This document shows, one piece after another, positions 504 through 19,049 of a stretch of DNA of 22,334 nucleotides. Position 1 is the first letter of the stretch. The number at the start of each line of letters is the position of its first letter. The translations under genes were made by a program, and so were the position numbers. The DNA comes from a virus: positions 1 to 22,334 of the IMG/VR virus record IMGVR_UViG_3300042291_000846; one strand, 5' to 3'. The notes below the pieces were generated by a model. It saw nothing but the letters and a program-made list of their open reading frames with translations, was not told the DNA's origin and did no database searches.

Positions 504-514
504 ACGTATTAGTA
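504..514 (+). promoter_or_regulatory. Conserved promoter-like motif, copy 1 (ACGTATTAGTA)
   Basis: This copy differs from the other plus-strand copies only in its first base (A for G). It is followed by GATATAGGACA, whose TATAGGA part resembles the melting and start region of single-subunit phage RNA polymerase promoters. It lies between genes and points towards the 85-aa gene at 645 and the small-protein and terminase cassette. The promoter role is inferred from recurrence and placement. Confidence 0.6.
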
Positions 515-997: not shown

Positions 998-1150
998 ATG
1001 GCAGCTAAACCCGGCTTGTACGCCAATATTCAAAAAAAGAGAGAACGTATCGCTGCGGGCTCAGGCGAAAAAATGCGAAAGCCCGGCACCAAGGGCGCTC
1101 CAAAGGCAAGTAACTTTAAAGAGGCAGCAAAGACTGCGAAGACAAAATGA
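998..1150 (+). CDS. Tiny basic protein, 50 aa (KPGLYANI type)
   Basis: The 50-residue ORF runs from ATG 998 to TGA 1148-1150, with AAGGAA 6-11 bases upstream. The protein begins MAAKPGLYANIQKKRERIAA and continues with a G-S-G-E-K-M-R-K-P-G-T-K-G-A-P core and an Ala/Lys-rich tail. This pattern is familiar from small conserved proteins of phages and Proteobacteria with no known function. The charge is strongly positive, about one third Lys and Arg, which fits nucleic acid binding, but no fold is known to me. The stop overlaps the next start (ATGA), making it the first gene of a coupled cassette leading to the terminase gene. Confidence 0.75.
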   Translation: MAAKPGLYANIQKKRERIAAGSGEKMRKPGTKGAPKASNFKEAAKTAKTK

Positions 1151-1233
1151 ACGAACTAGACCCACCATTAGAAAATCTAACAGCGCCATCAAACGAGGCT
1201 CCCCCTGAACCAAAACCAGAGGAGCAGGAATGA
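1147..1233 (+). CDS. Very small acidic, proline-rich peptide, 28 aa
   Basis: A 28-codon frame (MNELDPPLENLTAPSNEAPP, then EPKPEEQE) begins at the ATGA junction with the 50-aa gene and ends at the ATGA junction with the 113-aa gene. Its support is positional: without it there would be an 80-base gap in an otherwise gapless cassette, and both ends are coupled stop-start overlaps. The peptide is rich in Pro and Glu, so it is likely disordered and acidic, in contrast to its basic neighbours. It could be a translated linker that carries ribosomes to the next gene. Confidence 0.5.
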   Translation: MNELDPPLENLTAPSNEAPPEPKPEEQE

Positions 1234-1571
1234 AAGACTTTAAAAAAATGCCTAAAATGGCTGACGGCGGTAGTGTTGACGCAGAAGTTAGCGAAACTAA
1301 AAAGTACGTAAAGCCAGGTAAACCGGATCTTAGCGGCGATTCTAGGGGACTTTTAAGCAGATTAAAAGAGTCCAAGGAAAAACCACAAAAACCATTAGGG
1401 CCTGTTGATATGACAGGTTCTATGGGAAACATCGGCGGAAAACCAGAAACAGGCAATTATAGAAGGCCACCATCAGCTCGCGGCAGCAGCAGCAGCATGG
1501 GCGGCGGAGATATGAGCGGCATGAAGGGCCTAGACAAGCCATACAAACGCGGCGGTAAGGTAAAGAAGTAA
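1230..1571 (+). CDS. Low-complexity basic protein with GG motifs, 113 aa
   Basis: The 113-residue protein is probably disordered. Near the start (residues 9-16) it has KMADGGSV and it ends in YKRGGKVKK. Between these lie Lys-, Gly-, Ser- and Pro-rich stretches, including a short serine run and Met-Gly repeats (residues 83-101). The A-x-G-G-x-V type motif recurs in the large virion proteins of the minus strand (see findings). The ATG overlaps the previous stop, with GGAGCAGG a few bases upstream. The last base of its stop is the first base of the next start (TAATG). Function unknown; a small virion-associated or scaffold-like role is possible but unproven. Confidence 0.65.
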   Translation: MKDFKKMPKMADGGSVDAEVSETKKYVKPGKPDLSGDSRGLLSRLKESKEKPQKPLGPVDMTGSMGNIGGKPETGNYRRPPSARGSSSSMGGGDMSGMKGLDKPYKRGGKVKK

Positions 1572-1837
1572 TGGCAACTAAAAAGAATGCTCCCTCGCTT
1601 GCGATTGGTCGTGGTGAAAAGCTGCCTGCGTCTAAGGGCGCTGGGCTTACCGCCAAAGGTCGTGCTAAATATAATGCGGCTACTGGCTCGAATCTAAAGG
1701 CTCCGCAGCCCGAAGGCGGCGCCCGTAAAGACTCGTTCTGCGCCCGTATGTCTGGTGTAAAAGGCCCGATGAAGGACGAGAACGGCAAACCAACACGTAA
1801 AGCCGCGGCTTTGAAAAGGTGGAAATGTGGTAGTTAA
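1571..1837 (+). CDS. DUF6321-like small basic protein, 88 aa
   Basis: The 88-residue protein contains KLPASKGAGLTAKGRAKYNA (residues 17-36), then the G-S-N-L-K-A-P-Q-P-E-G-G block, DSFCARMSGVKGPM and a closing KRWKC. I associate this pattern with DUF6321, a family of unknown function found in phages and bacteria; the family name is from memory. It is strongly basic, with two conserved-looking cysteines (C57 and C86) that could bind a metal or form a pair. It overlaps its neighbours on both sides (1 base upstream, 11 bases downstream), so it is made together with the terminase small subunit-like protein. Confidence 0.75.
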   Translation: MATKKNAPSLAIGRGEKLPASKGAGLTAKGRAKYNAATGSNLKAPQPEGGARKDSFCARMSGVKGPMKDENGKPTRKAAALKRWKCGS

Positions 1838-2213
1838 AAGAGCAGAATCTAAATTCAAGCCCGAGATGTGCGAGCGCATGATCGAGATGGGCAAGCAAGG
1901 CGCCTCACAGAAGATGATCTGGAGCGAGCTTGGCATCAGCAAGAACAACGCCGAGTCGCTAAAGAAAAGCAACCCAGAGTTTGCCGAGGCACTAGACATG
2001 GCACTGGTACACGCTCAGGCGTACTGGGAGCGTGAGCTACTGGCCAACATTGAAAACAAGGGCTACAACTCCCGCCTAGCCGAGATAGCGCTCCGTGGCC
2101 AGTTCCAGTCAGACTACCGCGAGACCCGTGACACCAAGGTAGATCTAAAGGCGGAAGTTAAAATAGACTTTAACAAAGAGGTACAAGATTTAATTAAGGC
2201 GTTAAAAGCATAA
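1827..2213 (+). CDS. Terminase small subunit-like DNA-binding protein
   Basis: The 128-residue protein has the layout of phage terminase small subunits. A KFKPEMCERMIEMGKQGASQ start leads into a helix-turn-helix (about residues 24-50: GASQKMIWSELGISKNNAES), followed by an EALDMALVHAQAYWERELL helix, an R-L-A-E-I-A-L-R-G-Q-F segment and a lysine-rich C-terminus. Such proteins recognise viral DNA and regulate the large terminase at the start of packaging. The start is GTG at 1827, supported by AAAAGGTGG just upstream and by coupling with the DUF6321-like gene. A different DNA-binding regulator with the same N-terminal fold remains possible because no large terminase is visible in the window. Confidence 0.7.
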   Translation: MVVKRAESKFKPEMCERMIEMGKQGASQKMIWSELGISKNNAESLKKSNPEFAEALDMALVHAQAYWERELLANIENKGYNSRLAEIALRGQFQSDYRETRDTKVDLKAEVKIDFNKEVQDLIKALKA

Positions 2214-3835: not shown

Positions 3836-4093
3836 ATGGTGGTAGAGTGCTATGGTTCGGAGTTTGAAGTGCCGGATTTATTAGTCGATAAGTTTTTCAA
3901 AGATTTTGAAACTCTGCCGGGAAGTGGGTACCGTGAAGGTGTCTACCAAATACGAGATTCAATTAGTGAAATTTTAGACATAGTAGTAGAAGACCCAGAG
4001 ATCCTGCACGAGCCTGAGTATCTTACAGACTTCATCAGGGCTCTGGCAATGCGGCAGGCGATGGAAAAACTAGGGATTTTGTTAGACTCATAA
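3836..4093 (+). CDS. Small acidic protein, 85 aa, function unknown
   Basis: The 85-residue protein has the ribosome binding site AGGAG directly upstream (3826-3830), nine bases after the stop of the membrane protein gene. It begins MVVECYGSEFEVPDLLVDKF and is rich in Asp, Glu, Ile and Leu, with amphipathic helices to the end (ALAMRQAMEKLGILLDS). I recognise no domain. It is the last gene before promoter-like motif 3, so it closes the DUF2800 operon. The following 114 bases to the next gene hold only that motif, a weak small hairpin near 4100-4110 and the leader. Confidence 0.6.
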   Translation: MVVECYGSEFEVPDLLVDKFFKDFETLPGSGYREGVYQIRDSISEILDIVVEDPEILHEPEYLTDFIRALAMRQAMEKLGILLDS

Positions 4094-4129
4094 CCTATCT
4101 CACATCGTGAAATAACAAGTTGTAGATTT

Positions 4130-4140
4130 GCGTATTAGTA
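4130..4140 (+). promoter_or_regulatory. Conserved promoter-like motif, copy 3 (GCGTATTAGTA)
   Basis: An exact copy of the 11-bp motif, 36 bases after the stop of the 85-aa gene and 67 bases before the ATG of the DUF2815 gene. It is followed by ACAACAGTAA, which fits the A/T-rich downstream part less well than copies 1 and 2. No terminator with a T-run precedes it. Confidence 0.65.
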
Positions 4141-4207
4141 ACAACAGTAAAAGGTTAGACGTGCTGGCACCTATTGAAGTCCAGTACTTAAGTTAATAAG
4201 GCATATC

Positions 4208-4726
4208 ATGACACAAGCAACTAAAGTAAAAATCGTTACCGGTAAAGTTCGTTTTTCTTACGCTAACGTATTCTCACCAAAGGCATCAATCGAGGGCGGC
4301 ACACCAAAGTACTCCGTGTCCATCATCATCCCTAAGTCCGACAAGGAAACCATCGCCAAGATAACCAAGGCGTACGAAGACACCAAGGCAGGCGCAGCAG
4401 CCTACTTCGGTGGCGCAGTACCTAAAGGTCTTAAAGGTGGCTTGCGTGACGGCGACGAAGAGAAAGACGACCCAGCATACGCAGGCTCATTCTTTATCAA
4501 CGCCAACTCAGCACAGAAGCCCGGCGTAGTAGACCAAGACCTCAATCCTATTATGGACATGAACGAGTTCTACAGCGGCTGCTACGGCCGTGCATCAATC
4601 ACCTTCTATCCATACAACGCACAAGGTTCTAAGGGCATCGCCTGTGGTTTGAACAACGTACAGAAGTTGGAAGACGGCGAGAAGTTGGGCGGCGCAACAT
4701 CCGCAGCAGCAGACTTCGCAATCTAA
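4208..4726 (+). CDS. DUF2815 single-stranded DNA-binding-like protein
   Basis: The 172-residue protein fits DUF2815 in length and sequence. It shows VKIVTGKVRFSYANVFSPKA near the start, a Y-S-V-S-I-I-I-P-K-S-D strand, then a helix, AYAGSFFINANSAQKPGVVD in the middle, YSGCYGRASITFYPYNA and a GIACGLNNVQKLEDGE end. Members of this family have an OB fold and have been linked to single-stranded DNA binding in phages (Enc34-type). The acidic, Ala-rich C-terminus ending in ADFAI resembles the acidic tip of SSB proteins. It has its own promoter-like motif and its own terminator, so it appears to be a single-gene transcription unit, as might be expected for a protein needed in large amounts. Confidence 0.85.
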   Translation: MTQATKVKIVTGKVRFSYANVFSPKASIEGGTPKYSVSIIIPKSDKETIAKITKAYEDTKAGAAAYFGGAVPKGLKGGLRDGDEEKDDPAYAGSFFINANSAQKPGVVDQDLNPIMDMNEFYSGCYGRASITFYPYNAQGSKGIACGLNNVQKLEDGEKLGGATSAAADFAI

Positions 4727-4748
4727 TAGTAGTACCCAGTAGTGGGCG

Positions 4749-4778
4749 GCCCGGCGTAGAAACTGCGCCGGGCTTTTT
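4749..4778 (+). terminator. Rho-independent terminator after the DUF2815 gene
   Basis: GCCCGGCG (4749-4756) pairs perfectly with CGCCGGGC (4766-4773) around a nine-base loop, followed by TTTTT. It lies 22 bases after the stop of the DUF2815 gene. Unlike the other two terminators it has no TTCG loop and no promoter motif behind it, so the reductase gene downstream may depend on read-through or on a promoter I cannot see. Confidence 0.85.
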
Positions 4779-4816
4779 GCCCTTTAACATAACCATATAA
4801 CCGTAGAGAAAAATAA

Positions 4817-6691
4817 ATGGACCAGTATCAAGAGTACATCGCCGCCAGCCGTTACGCCCGCTACCAAGACGACAAGGGCCGTCGTGAGTCATGGGACGAA
4901 ACCACACAGCGTTTTGTAGATTATATTTTTAGTCGTACCCCAGCAATCACCGCAAATGGCGCGTTGAAAGACGAGCTGTTCTCCGCAATTAAAAACTTAG
5001 AACTTATGCCTTCCATGCGCGCCATGATGACGGCAGGAAAGAGTGCCGATCGTGACAATACTTGCGTCTATAATTGCTCGTATCTCCCAGTGGATGACCC
5101 CAAGTCCTTTGACGAGGCCATGTTCATCCTGCTCTGCGGTACTGGCGTTGGATTCTCGGTTGAATCCAAGTACATTAACCAACTGCCCGAGGTGCCAGAA
5201 AAGCTGTTTGATTCAGAGCACACGATCTCGGTACACGACTCCAAAGAAGGCTGGGCCAAGTCACTACGTCTACTCCTCGCAAACCTCTGGGCCGGAGAGA
5301 TCCCAAAGTGGGACGTCTCCAACGTCAGACCTGCCGGAGCACGACTCAAAACATTTGGTGGACGAGCTTCCGGGCCGCAACCACTGATTGACTTGTTTGA
5401 GTTTACTGTGGCGGTATTTAAACACGCTAAGGGCCGTAAGCTGCATTCGTTAGAGTGCCACGACCTGATGTGTAAAATTGGTGAGGTGGTAGTGGTTGGC
5501 GGTGTTCGTCGATCAGCTATGATTTCACTTTCCGACCTTGATGATGAAAGGATTCGACATGCCAAAGCTGGCCCATGGTGGGATACTGCACCTCACCGTG
5601 CGCTCGCCAACAATAGCGCGGTTTATAATGAGACACCTACCGTTGGAAAGTTTATGGAAGAGTGGCTATCTCTATACAATTCACACAGTGGGGAACGAGG
5701 GATATTCAACCGTGAGGCTGCGCGTAAGACGGTGGAGAAGTACGGGCACCGTGATCCTAACTTTGAATTCGGAACTAACCCCTGCTCAGAAATTGTTCTT
5801 CGGCCGTACCAATTTTGTAACCTTAGCGAGGTAGTAGTACGACATGATGACACCAAAGAAACCTTACTGCGCAAAGTGCGGCTTGCCACCATCCTTGGTA
5901 CAATCCAAAGTACCTTCACAAAGTTCCCTTACCTGCGAAAAGTGTGGCAACGCAATACCGAGGAAGAACGTCTACTCGGAGTCTCCCTCACAGGAATCTA
6001 CGACAACAAACTCTTGTGTACACAAGGAGAGGAATTAAATGTTTTACTGGACGAACTTAGAGAGTGCGCTCGAGCAACAAATACAGAATGGGCAGCAGCT
6101 CTCGGAATCCCTGTCAGCGCTTCTATCACATGCGTCAAGCCAAGTGGAACAGTATCCCAGCTTGTTGATTCGGCGAGCGGCATCCACCCTCGCCATGCTA
6201 AATTCTATATCCGAAGAGTGCGAGGAGATAAAAAAGATCCTCTCACCCAGTTCCTTGTTGGACAAGGAGTTCCAGCTGAAGACTGCGTTTACAAGCCAAC
6301 CCAGACTACCGTCTTCAGTTTTGCACAGAGAGCACCTGACGGACTTACTCGAGACGACGTCACCCCAATCGCCCACCTCGAGCTCTGGCTCACCTACCAG
6401 CGACACTGGTGCGAGCACAAGCCAAGCGTTACTATCTCAGTTGCGGAAAAAGACTGGCCAAGCGTCGGAGCGTGGACATGGGAACACTTTGGAGAGATCA
6501 GCGGAGTTAGCTATCTCCCGTACGACGGCGGAACATATCGCCAAGCTCCGTACGAAGAGTGTACGGAAGAAGAGTACAACAAGCTCAAAGCCAGCATCCC
6601 AGTCGTCGACTGGAGCCAGCTCAGAGAAAACACCGACAACGTAGAGGGCGCGCAGATGTTAGCCTGTAGTGCAGGAAGTTGCGAGATATAA
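4817..6691 (+). CDS. nrdJ: Class II (adenosylcobalamin-dependent) ribonucleoside-triphosphate reductase, monomeric
   Basis: The 624-residue protein makes deoxynucleotides from ribonucleotides using a B12-generated thiyl radical. Signatures in order: DNTCVYNC (the first redox cysteine, probably C87), LLCGTGVGFSVES (101-116), TNPCSEI with the radical cysteine C323 flanked by N321 and E325, and CNLSEV with C334. C323 and C334 are eleven residues apart, as C408 and C419 in the Lactobacillus leichmannii enzyme. Then come KPSGTVSQLVDSASGIHPRH (441-460) and the C-terminal ACSAGSCEI, whose C617 and C622 have the five-residue spacing of the reducing pair. At 624 residues it is shorter than the 739 of that enzyme, so part of the regulatory region may be reduced. 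The ribosome binding site is weak (AGAG). No B12 riboswitch is visible upstream. Confidence 0.93.
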   Translation: MDQYQEYIAASRYARYQDDKGRRESWDETTQRFVDYIFSRTPAITANGALKDELFSAIKNLELMPSMRAMMTAGKSADRDNTCVYNCSYLPVDDPKSFDEAMFILLCGTGVGFSVESKYINQLPEVPEKLFDSEHTISVHDSKEGWAKSLRLLLANLWAGEIPKWDVSNVRPAGARLKTFGGRASGPQPLIDLFEFTVAVFKHAKGRKLHSLECHDLMCKIGEVVVVGGVRRSAMISLSDLDDERIRHAKAGPWWDTAPHRALANNSAVYNETPTVGKFMEEWLSLYNSHSGERGIFNREAARKTVEKYGHRDPNFEFGTNPCSEIVLRPYQFCNLSEVVVRHDDTKETLLRKVRLATILGTIQSTFTKFPYLRKVWQRNTEEERLLGVSLTGIYDNKLLCTQGEELNVLLDELRECARATNTEWAAALGIPVSASITCVKPSGTVSQLVDSASGIHPRHAKFYIRRVRGDKKDPLTQFLVGQGVPAEDCVYKPTQTTVFSFAQRAPDGLTRDDVTPIAHLELWLTYQRHWCEHKPSVTISVAEKDWPSVGAWTWEHFGEISGVSYLPYDGGTYRQAPYEECTEEEYNKLKASIPVVDWSQLRENTDNVEGAQMLACSAGSCEI

Positions 6692-6785: not shown

Positions 6786-8696
6786 ATGATTTACAGCATT
6801 GACTTTGAGACACGTAGCCACATTGACCTAACTGAGCGTGGCCTTGACATCTACGCCAACGACCCCAGCACAGACGTGTTATGTATTGCGTACGGAATAT
6901 ATCCTGACAGGATACGTTTGGTGGACTCCAGTATAATTGACAAAAACTTTCCTTTGCTAGACCACGTCAAGAACGGCGGCAAAATACAAGCGTGGAACGC
7001 CATGTTTGAGTACGCTATCTGGAACTGTGTCTGCGTGCCAAAGTACGGCTGGCCACCTCTAAGGCTGGAGCAGTGCATTGACACCATGGCCATAGCCGCG
7101 GCTAACAACGTGCCACAGTCACTCGGCGACGCAGCCACCTTCATGGACGCCAGCCAGCAGAAAGACACCCGCGGCAGGTACTTGATCCAGAAGCTGTGCA
7201 AGCCCCACAAGGGCGCCTTTAACGAGGACGCTGAGTTGATGCGTGAGTTGTTTGATTACTGCGCACAGGACGTACGCACAGAGATGGCCATAGGAAGCGT
7301 TTTAAGGCCCCTTAGCGACGTCGAACAGGAAGTCTGGACCCTTACCCAGCGGATCAATTTAAAGGGCGTACCGGTCGATCCTGACGAGCTTGTAAACGCC
7401 TGCACGGCGGTCTGTGACGCCCAGAGAAACATTGACCAAGAGTGCCTGTGGCTGACCGGCTACAAGCCCTCAGAGCGGGCCAAGCTGCTGGATTGGATGA
7501 AGACCTTTGACGTCGAGATACCCGACCTGACCGCAGAGACCGTATCAAAATTACTGCAGTGCAACATACCAGCCAACCTAAAGCGTGCGCTGGAGCTGAG
7601 ACAAGAAGGAAGCCAAACTAGCGTGGCTAAGTACGCTAAGATGATGGAGATACAACGTGAAGGACGAATTCGGAATACACTGGTATATCATGGCGCTAGT
7701 ACCGGCCGCTGGGCGAGCCGTGGTGGCCTTAACCTGCAGAATATTGCTCGCCCCACAATACAAGATGGAGAGATTGAACGAGCTATACCAAGAGTCTTTG
7801 ATGGAGGACTGGGATCAATGTCCGAGCTCTCGTCGCTCGTACGTAGCGCCATCAAGGCTCCCCTTGGAAAAACCTTCGTTGACGTGGATTTTAGCTCAAT
7901 TGAAAACCGAGTTGGGGTTTGGCTCGCAGGACAAAGAGACAAAGTCGAGCTCTTCAGAAAGGGACTAGATGAGTACAAAGTTTTCGCTGCGGAAAGCCTT
8001 TACCACGTGCCTTACGAAGCTGTCACGAAGGATCAGAGACAGATTAGCAAATCAGCAGTCCTCGGCGCAATGTTTGGTCAGGGAGCGAAAGGGCTGGTTA
8101 AGTACGCTGAAGGAATGGGGGTCAAGCTAAGTGAGAGGGAGGCTAAGAACGCGGTAGATAATTACCGCAGCTCGTACGCTAAGGTGAAGAACCTATGGGC
8201 GCTGTGCGAGACCGCTGCGATTGATGCGGTGCAGAACCCTGGAGTTGGGTACGCCGCGGGGAGTAAGATCAAGATGAAGTGCGCCAAGGAGGCGCTGTGG
8301 ATGCAGCTGCCGTCAGGTCGTCTGATCTGCTGGCAGCGGCCACAGCTCGAGCTGCTCACCACACCATGGGGCAGCGAGAAGCTCGGCGTCACTGTCCATA
8401 GCCAAAGTACTTACACTCGCCAGTGGACAAGGAACCCGCTCATCGGGAGTTCCATTTTTCAGTCTGCTGTACAGGGAACGGCACGTGACTTTCTGGCAGA
8501 TGCGACACTCAATATTACCAAAGCGGGGTATGAGGTCATCAACTTGATCCATGACGAGGTGCTACTCCTAACAGATGAGGATGGTAGTGATGCGGCGCTG
8601 GCCGATGTGCTCAAGATTATGACCACACCACCAACATGGGCGTCTGACTTCCCTCTAGCGGCGGAGGGCTGGGTCAGCAAGCGCTACAAGAAGTAA
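6786..8696 (+). CDS. polA: Family A DNA polymerase with 3'-5' exonuclease domain
   Basis: The 636-residue protein is a phage-type DNA polymerase I without the 5' nuclease. The N-terminal proofreading domain has SIDFETR (D6, E8), NAMFEYAIW (E75 at the usual second-motif acid) and YCAQDVRTE (D162). The polymerase domain has the TGRWAS motif (306-311), motif A VDVDFSSIENR (D368), motif B RQISKSAVLGAMFG (418-431) and motif C LIHDEV (H589, D590). Aligning motif B with E. coli Pol I places Leu426 at position 762 and Phe430 at position 766 (normally Phe and Tyr). AAGGAG six bases upstream fixes the start. It replicates the phage genome. Its stop touches the stop of the converging minus-strand gene with no gap. 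Confidence 0.93.
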   Translation: MIYSIDFETRSHIDLTERGLDIYANDPSTDVLCIAYGIYPDRIRLVDSSIIDKNFPLLDHVKNGGKIQAWNAMFEYAIWNCVCVPKYGWPPLRLEQCIDTMAIAAANNVPQSLGDAATFMDASQQKDTRGRYLIQKLCKPHKGAFNEDAELMRELFDYCAQDVRTEMAIGSVLRPLSDVEQEVWTLTQRINLKGVPVDPDELVNACTAVCDAQRNIDQECLWLTGYKPSERAKLLDWMKTFDVEIPDLTAETVSKLLQCNIPANLKRALELRQEGSQTSVAKYAKMMEIQREGRIRNTLVYHGASTGRWASRGGLNLQNIARPTIQDGEIERAIPRVFDGGLGSMSELSSLVRSAIKAPLGKTFVDVDFSSIENRVGVWLAGQRDKVELFRKGLDEYKVFAAESLYHVPYEAVTKDQRQISKSAVLGAMFGQGAKGLVKYAEGMGVKLSEREAKNAVDNYRSSYAKVKNLWALCETAAIDAVQNPGVGYAAGSKIKMKCAKEALWMQLPSGRLICWQRPQLELLTTPWGSEKLGVTVHSQSTYTRQWTRNPLIGSSIFQSAVQGTARDFLADATLNITKAGYEVINLIHDEVLLLTDEDGSDAALADVLKIMTTPPTWASDFPLAAEGWVSKRYKK

Positions 8697-15441: not shown

Positions 15442-19049
<3,608 letters not shown>

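Follow-up and report, generated by a model that had tools for sequence, protein, structure and literature searches.

Internal head proteins of phages are already known as a kind. The T4 internal proteins IPI, IPII and IPIII are reported to be highly diverse, with only their capsid targeting sequence (CTS) conserved (PMC3012670), and a 10-amino acid CTS is reported to send even foreign proteins into T4 heads (PMC10229621). The polyvalent proteins, as they have been described, are large multi-part proteins that are encoded in virion gene regions and are thought to be packaged and injected (PMC5512222). In addition, the T4-GC119 proteins of cyanomyoviruses (about 490–850 aa) carry a DUF6321 domain (PF19846) as their C-terminal end; in phage S-SM1 the gene annotated T4-GC 119 (SSM1_115) lies two genes past gp16. 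DUF6321 and a second domain, here called KPGLYANI, are already in databases without a function; phrog_16028 and phrog_11180 are the same family as KPGLYANI, and PHROGs gives neither a function. A literature search for DUF6321, KPGLYANI, GLYANIHAK and MKDFKKMPKM found no paper.

We analyzed a 22,334-base record from an uncultured virus, the whole of which is called the window below; its gene content indicates a tailed phage. Five genes on its plus strand are joined by overlaps of 4, 4, 1 and 11 nt: a KPGLYANI gene (positions 998–1150, 50 aa), a 28-aa ORF (1147–1233), a 113-aa gene (1230–1571), a DUF6321 gene (1571–1837, 88 aa) and a terminase small subunit-like (TerS-like) gene with a GTG start (1827–2213, 128 aa). 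A previous sequence-only reading of this DNA had described the four small genes as coupled into the TerS-like gene and three of their products as strongly basic, and both descriptions hold; net charges of the five proteins are, in order, +11, -7, +12, +15 and +1, the 28-aa protein being acidic. Median dN/dS between window genes and their relatives is 0.11 for KPGLYANI (37 of 43 pairs usable), 0.05 for DUF6321 (52 of 60) and 0.07 for the TerS-like gene (all nine, some of these relatives being nearly identical to one another), and these low values indicate that all three are real genes. Past its N-terminal leader, the 113-aa gene differs from its counterpart in contig L249 by a dN of 0.064 and a dS of 0.77. 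The 28-aa ORF is present in few relatives only, with phmmer relatives at five other loci (L258, L175, L014, L015 and L016), and the 11-nt overlap between the DUF6321 and TerS-like genes is kept at 33 of the 35 distinct loci compared, one of which is the window. The reading that we favor, at about an even chance, is that this cassette encodes small basic proteins that are carried inside the head, rather than packaging machinery.

The 113-aa gene begins with a conserved leader, MKDFKKMPKMADGGSV (1230–1277), and ends with a basic tail, RGGKVKK (1548–1568), similar tails being present in most proteins of the set compared with it. Neither Pfam, PHROGs nor the phage records yielded a significant match to the whole protein; it has 16 related viral loci, at 11 of which the match extends no further than residue 39. 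So as not to select on the leader, we measured its conservation in slots found independently of it: the KPGLYANI–DUF6321 gaps at loci that had been retrieved by searching with the three other proteins (eight including the window, seven distinct). The longest ORF in each such slot starts MKDFK, and among the seven distinct slot proteins (21 pairs) residues 1–14 are 81% identical while the bodies are 23% identical, against 20% for shuffled sequences. In a wider set chosen by motif (27 distinct proteins, 18 of them starting MKDFKK) the leader codons differ synonymously, so it is the protein sequence that is conserved. An earlier leader identity of 96% (12 body-distinct proteins, 60% cut) was partly circular because those proteins had been picked by motif; it is 88% at the five positions free of motif choice, and the 81% from unselected slots is used instead. 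The lower figure does not change our confidence in head carriage, since leaders and bodies still differ sharply in identity. The exact MKDFKKMPKM coding pattern occurs in 20 viral contigs and so is uncommon.

The slot itself varies. Where DUF6321 adjoins TerS (35 distinct loci), it holds one leader gene at 15, two at 2 and none at 11, with KPGLYANI and DUF6321 fused at 4 and the contig ending early at 3, counts that include loci from the 113-aa query, which favor filled slots. Leader variants also begin KPGLYANI genes at 10 loci (L026–L032, L039–L041), a DUF6321 gene at one (L091) and proteins of 173–242 aa in the leftward or late block of three contigs (L250, L263 and L272), where their neighbor is a conserved gene for a protein of roughly 355 aa (phrog_12985, function unassigned in PHROGs). 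Like the T4 internal proteins, the otherwise diverse small slot proteins share a short conserved N-terminal leader; unlike them, they have a different leader sequence and are encoded beside a TerS-like gene with replication genes. We regard this as a likeness of design, and do not claim common descent. The combination of leader and slot, neither of which the sequence-only reading had noticed, seems to be new, as it was not met in the literature searched.

The flanking pair is more widespread. The window DUF6321 protein matches PF19846 at 81 bits (1e-22; curated cut-off 28.5), and the KPGLYANI protein matches phrog_16028 at 1.7e-24. At an E value of 0.01, KPGLYANI is found in 85 and DUF6321 in at least 524 of 50,697 phage records, their carriers including phages of Prochlorococcus, Synechococcus, Pelagibacter and Roseobacter; P-SCSP1u carries both. 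The two genes are usually close together: of 96 distinct pairs on one strand, 54 are no more than 30 nt apart and 84 no more than 1 kb; the pairs occur in both orders, seven ORFs contain both modules, and the 141-aa profile phrog_11180 matches the two modules in separate parts. Some similarity between them is visible by eye (GxGEK..SKGA), but an hhalign probability of 0.2 (E 0.28) led us to reject the idea that they are a single family. Neither has a real match among solved structures, and a model of a natural KPGLYANI-DUF6321 fusion (pLDDT 63) has no fold match, so no function can be assigned from fold. The KPGLYANI type is, as the sequence-only reading had proposed, also bacterial: at least 22 relatives were confirmed in GTDB genomes among at least 593 candidate matches, and 19 of the 22 sit on MAG contigs. 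PF19846 was matched in none of 14 control genomes. The gene neighborhoods of eleven of the 22 bacterial loci were judged by eye; KPGLYANI-like stretches on four Variovorax and Xylophilus contigs (L280, L282, L287 and L290) had, by eye, no evident phage genes near. Among the phage records, the roughly 52-aa KPGLYANI gene of CRP-810 (gp49, L010 4504–4662) bears the annotation ribonucleotide reductase A subunit, the KPGLYANI match in S-B28, WH11-B and 7B11-B likewise falls on genes labelled ribonucleotide reductase, and the 39-kb record of Limnohabitans phage DC33 (L007) is classed as Inoviridae, which its size does not fit.

Both modules also occur within large proteins, another feature that the sequence-only reading had overlooked. 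A search with the TerS-like protein retrieved 80 loci, and at nine of them DUF6321 lies 6.7–8.4 kb downstream on the other strand and, where the downstream ORF is long, forms the C-terminal end of a large protein. The same place in the window is occupied by a 1299-aa protein of the leftward block, which has no Pfam match at 0.01; the counterpart at that place in relative G001 is a 1010-aa protein with an ART-PolyVal domain. The leftward block also contains a virion structural protein (phrog_3287). DUF6321 thus shifts between standing free beside TerS and forming the C-terminal end of a virion-block protein. The cassette proteins resemble polyvalent proteins in that DUF6321 and KPGLYANI also form parts of large proteins of this type, whose positional relative has ART-PolyVal, and differ from them in being single small modules without known effector activity. 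Likewise, the domain that ends the long T4-GC119 proteins is in the window a free 88-aa protein. A DUF6321-bearing protein of contig L039 has a sub-threshold match to Methyltransf_23 (3.6e-4), and the ART-PolyVal domain of the positional relative of the window 1299-aa protein (L272 201–3233) is near the C-terminal end (1.1e-24).

We examined 21 annotated regions, hand-picked from the 85 and at least 524 records, with flanks of 2.5–5 kb; a head or packaging gene is present in 16 of them, in T7-like, podovirus-like and T4-like phages, six of the 21 being cyanomyoviruses that share a similar gene order. In the T7-like order, portal, scaffold (annotated or positional), one or both of our genes and capsid follow one another (KBS-P-1A, where psbA intervenes, S28-C3, Bylgja and HTVC168P), and in P-SCSP1d KPGLYANI and DUF6321 come after the capsid gene. 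They are located between the large terminase (TerL) and portal genes in DSL-LC05 and MW202483; DUF6321 precedes TerL and portal in Venkman, a virion gene and the terminase genes follow KPGLYANI in MW202701, and in CRP-810 KPGLYANI lies four genes before the capsid gene. In T4-like cyanophages DUF6321 is the end of a large protein whose gene is flanked by gp16 and gp17 or is close to either. The stretches from CRP-4, S-CRES3 and MW202825 hold no head gene, those from S-CRES3 and MW202825 having a lysozyme gene near, and in DC33 and P-GSP1 every gene is hypothetical.

A comparison that relied less on choice by hand took 80 viral contigs with KPGLYANI and, no more than 3 kb from that gene, its closest neighboring ORFs on the same strand with a length of 90 aa or more (n = 143). 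These neighbors matched TerL (phrog_2) 28 times, portal (phrog_156) 20, head assembly 11, scaffold 7 and TerS 4, as well as phrog_5902 (22) and phrog_14911 (20), two families without known function. Among 143 random other ORFs from the same contigs, phrog_2 was matched 3 times, phrog_156 4 and a second portal family 3, and the most frequent matches were to head-tail adaptor families (6 and 4). The lists cover the 25 commonest PHROGs, and the contrast is somewhat flattering because families overlap, ORFs were called mechanically and 30 of the 143 control ORFs are on the minus strand. Thus the genes are linked across phages both to packaging genes and to each other, the two links on which the sequence-only reading had staked its case. 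The tie to TerS seen in the window is local. Of the 80 TerS-queried loci, 71 extend 1 kb or more upstream; among these, DUF6321 abuts TerS in 11 and does not in 60, 20 have KPGLYANI no farther than 3 kb upstream, and elsewhere the pair adjoins TerL, portal, scaffold or capsid genes.

Such clustering might arise passively, if the terminase side were an insertion hot spot that gathers small selfish or neutral genes. HNH genes do lie near the cassette in DSL-LC05 (annotated) and L249 (by eye), and the gp16–gp17 interval is termed a hot spot in an account of cyanomyoviruses (PMC3037559), but dN/dS values are low, and the same pair recurs, in either order, by one head gene in some lineages and by another in others, so that we consider this very unlikely. 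In two contigs, L269 (7189–8181) and L270 (7224–8216), a 330-aa ORF overlaps the TerL start; the L269 copy matches TerL profiles (phrog_15, 1e-10), and by eye these ORFs look like a Hint or intein piece.

Virion proteomes also bear on the question. Phage S-CREM2 gp137 (108049–109521, between the terminase genes) matches PF19846 at 3.5e-10 and, as ORF137, appears in the mass spectrometry virion table of that phage with four unique peptides (PMC10665884), whose 4.1% coverage may fall anywhere along the 490 aa of a protein with DUF6321 at one end. Phage S-SCSM1 gp029 matches PF19846 at 3e-22 and its record label is "virion protein"; 45 proteins of that phage are reported as found by mass spectrometry (PMC9602691), and from the labelling pattern of the record this label appears to reflect that experiment. 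A DUF6321 protein is thus probably present in the virion of T4-like cyanophages. The GenBank label of the S-SM1 protein is no guide to virion presence, since T4-GC969, which is reported to have been detected, is labelled hypothetical. For podovirus carriers, no virion data were found in the literature searched, including passages of the CRP-810 paper. By cryo-EM the shell of P-SCSP1u is reported to consist of capsid protein only (PMC10575957), which disfavors an ordered place in the shell and is still compatible with one in the interior; a role as shell decoration protein is likewise disfavored, since P-SCSP1u is reported to be without any and yet carries both genes.

The chief rival to head carriage is that these are assembly or packaging accessories that leave the particle, made together with TerS and aiding prohead assembly, DNA condensation or the motor. 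The location of the genes between TerL, portal, scaffold and capsid genes would suit such aids, as would the conserved 11-nt overlap with TerS and the undecorated P-SCSP1u shell, but the presence of a DUF6321 protein in the S-CREM2 virion table, the modules within large proteins of the virion gene block, and slot protein bodies too variable for one conserved assembly role lead us to think it rather doubtful. The sequence-only reading had left packaging and virion roles side by side; the S-CREM2 proteome gives the virion role somewhat better support than that of a packaging accessory.

The TerS-like protein matches phrog_309 over residues 8–119 (6.2e-10), and its phage relatives are 26–31% identical, most of them being annotated as TerS. 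Its AlphaFold2 model (pLDDT 82) has Sf6 TerS at Foldseek ranks 1–6, with probabilities of 0.72–0.98, E values of 0.37–1.9 and TM-scores no higher than 0.50, so that the predicted identity is backed by the sequence profile and weakly by the fold. Terminase_6N gave no match in the 22-kb window record, which is a fragment; in G001 TerL lies about 18 kb from the TerS-like gene on the opposite strand. Upstream of the cassette on the same strand is an 85-aa gene (645–902) with no family match in Pfam or PHROG searches, and a similar ORF was seen by eye in L177, L173, L035 and L258. About 130 bases ahead of it is a promoter-like motif, CGTATTAGTA (505–514, plus strand), exact plus-strand copies of which lie between genes at window positions 505, 2265, 4131 and 6740 and precede the same genes in three of ten relatives inspected (L173, L035 and L258). 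The motif is a possible phage-specific promoter; its 11-base form, with two mismatches, occurs 10 times in the whole window against 6.1 expected, which is not significant. Past the TerS-like gene is a terminator-like hairpin with a T run (2236–2263, 10-pair stem), reported on the minus strand only, although the plus strand likewise ends in TTTTTT; such hairpin hits number 6 against 4.7 in shuffles, that is, chance level. Since CGTATTAGTA stands ahead of the cassette, and the hairpin followed by the second CGTATTAGTA copy stands after the TerS-like gene, the cassette may be a separate transcription unit. Further downstream the window encodes a phage ribonucleotide reductase (4817–6691, phrog_367, 1.2e-183) and a DNA polymerase (6786–8696, phrog_17, 9e-86).

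These features bring in another explanation, that the small proteins of the cassette act early, in host takeover or regulation, and are transcribed together with the replication genes; the TerS-like protein, with its HTH, would then be a regulator. It would account for the rightward block shared with replication genes, the cassette's own upstream CGTATTAGTA, the strong divergence of the leader-protein bodies and a match of the TerS-like protein to the transcriptional regulator phrog_3910 (1.6e-5); we nevertheless find it unlikely, given that both families lie in the head gene block in other lineages and that Sf6 TerS tops the fold list.

Returning to carriage in the head, a constant basic pair, a changing slot under one leader and head-building neighbors together fit proteins of the particle interior. 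This reading draws directly on gene structure, purifying selection, head-gene neighborhood, the contrast between leader and body, and one DUF6321 virion protein. Several observations count against it: the window cassette runs rightward with replication genes, outside the leftward block; the P-SCSP1u shell is capsid-only; three of 21 regions have no head gene; DUF6321 fails to abut TerS at most TerS-queried loci; and phrog_5902 and phrog_14911 are common neighbors. If it is right, the small basic proteins would be loaded into the head during assembly and would either stay there or be ejected with the DNA. KPGLYANI and DUF6321 would form the constant pair, with the slot between them taking genes that have a common leader, usually a basic tail, and unrelated middles. 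The leader would be a sorting signal for the head, analogous to the T4 internal-protein CTS, the basic ends would hold DNA, and the changing middle would be cargo for the assembling head or the new host. That the stand-alone proteins would enter the virion, be sorted there by the leader, bind DNA and perhaps act in the host is our inference.

More tentatively, and with distinctly less confidence, we suggest an undescribed cargo-loading system of non-T4 phages, in which the leader MKDFKKMPKM..GG would direct to the head a fast-changing set of small proteins, encoded in a dedicated slot flanked by KPGLYANI and DUF6321, the constant basic pair that many aquatic phages share. Their bodies would serve, once injected, in counter-defence or takeover, and could be found by sequence through the leader. 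Whatever their role, two small families without assigned function are linked with the head gene block in phages of different types. Should the leader prove to be a head-targeting tag, injected proteins could be listed directly in phages without a T4-like system, and there would be a short tag with which to load other proteins into such heads.

Some further observations concern protein starts and repeats. Contig L165 has tail fibre genes and a cytidyltransferase gene (PHROGs), and modules on proteins that start MKTYNQFIAE and MKSFKQLRE, which we take to resemble the T4 capsid targeting sequence. Its cytidyltransferase (4027–5922, phrog_3041, 1.2e-56) starts MNFKDYIKEATEK, presumably also a resemblance to that targeting sequence. 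The motif [MFY]AxGG is present in many small proteins (205 against 41 expected in shuffles, homologues included) and often stands ahead of modules within large proteins, where it is possibly a linker or cleavage site. It resembles the adenovirus protease site, but homologues inflate the excess and no protease was linked to the motif, so that we offer a proteolytic site as a remark only. A cytidylyltransferase is listed in the S-CREM2 virion table (PMC10665884). Finally, 15-nt tandem repeats at window positions 16599–17108 encode a Pro-rich EPTPV/PPTPV tract within a 1202-aa minus-strand protein.
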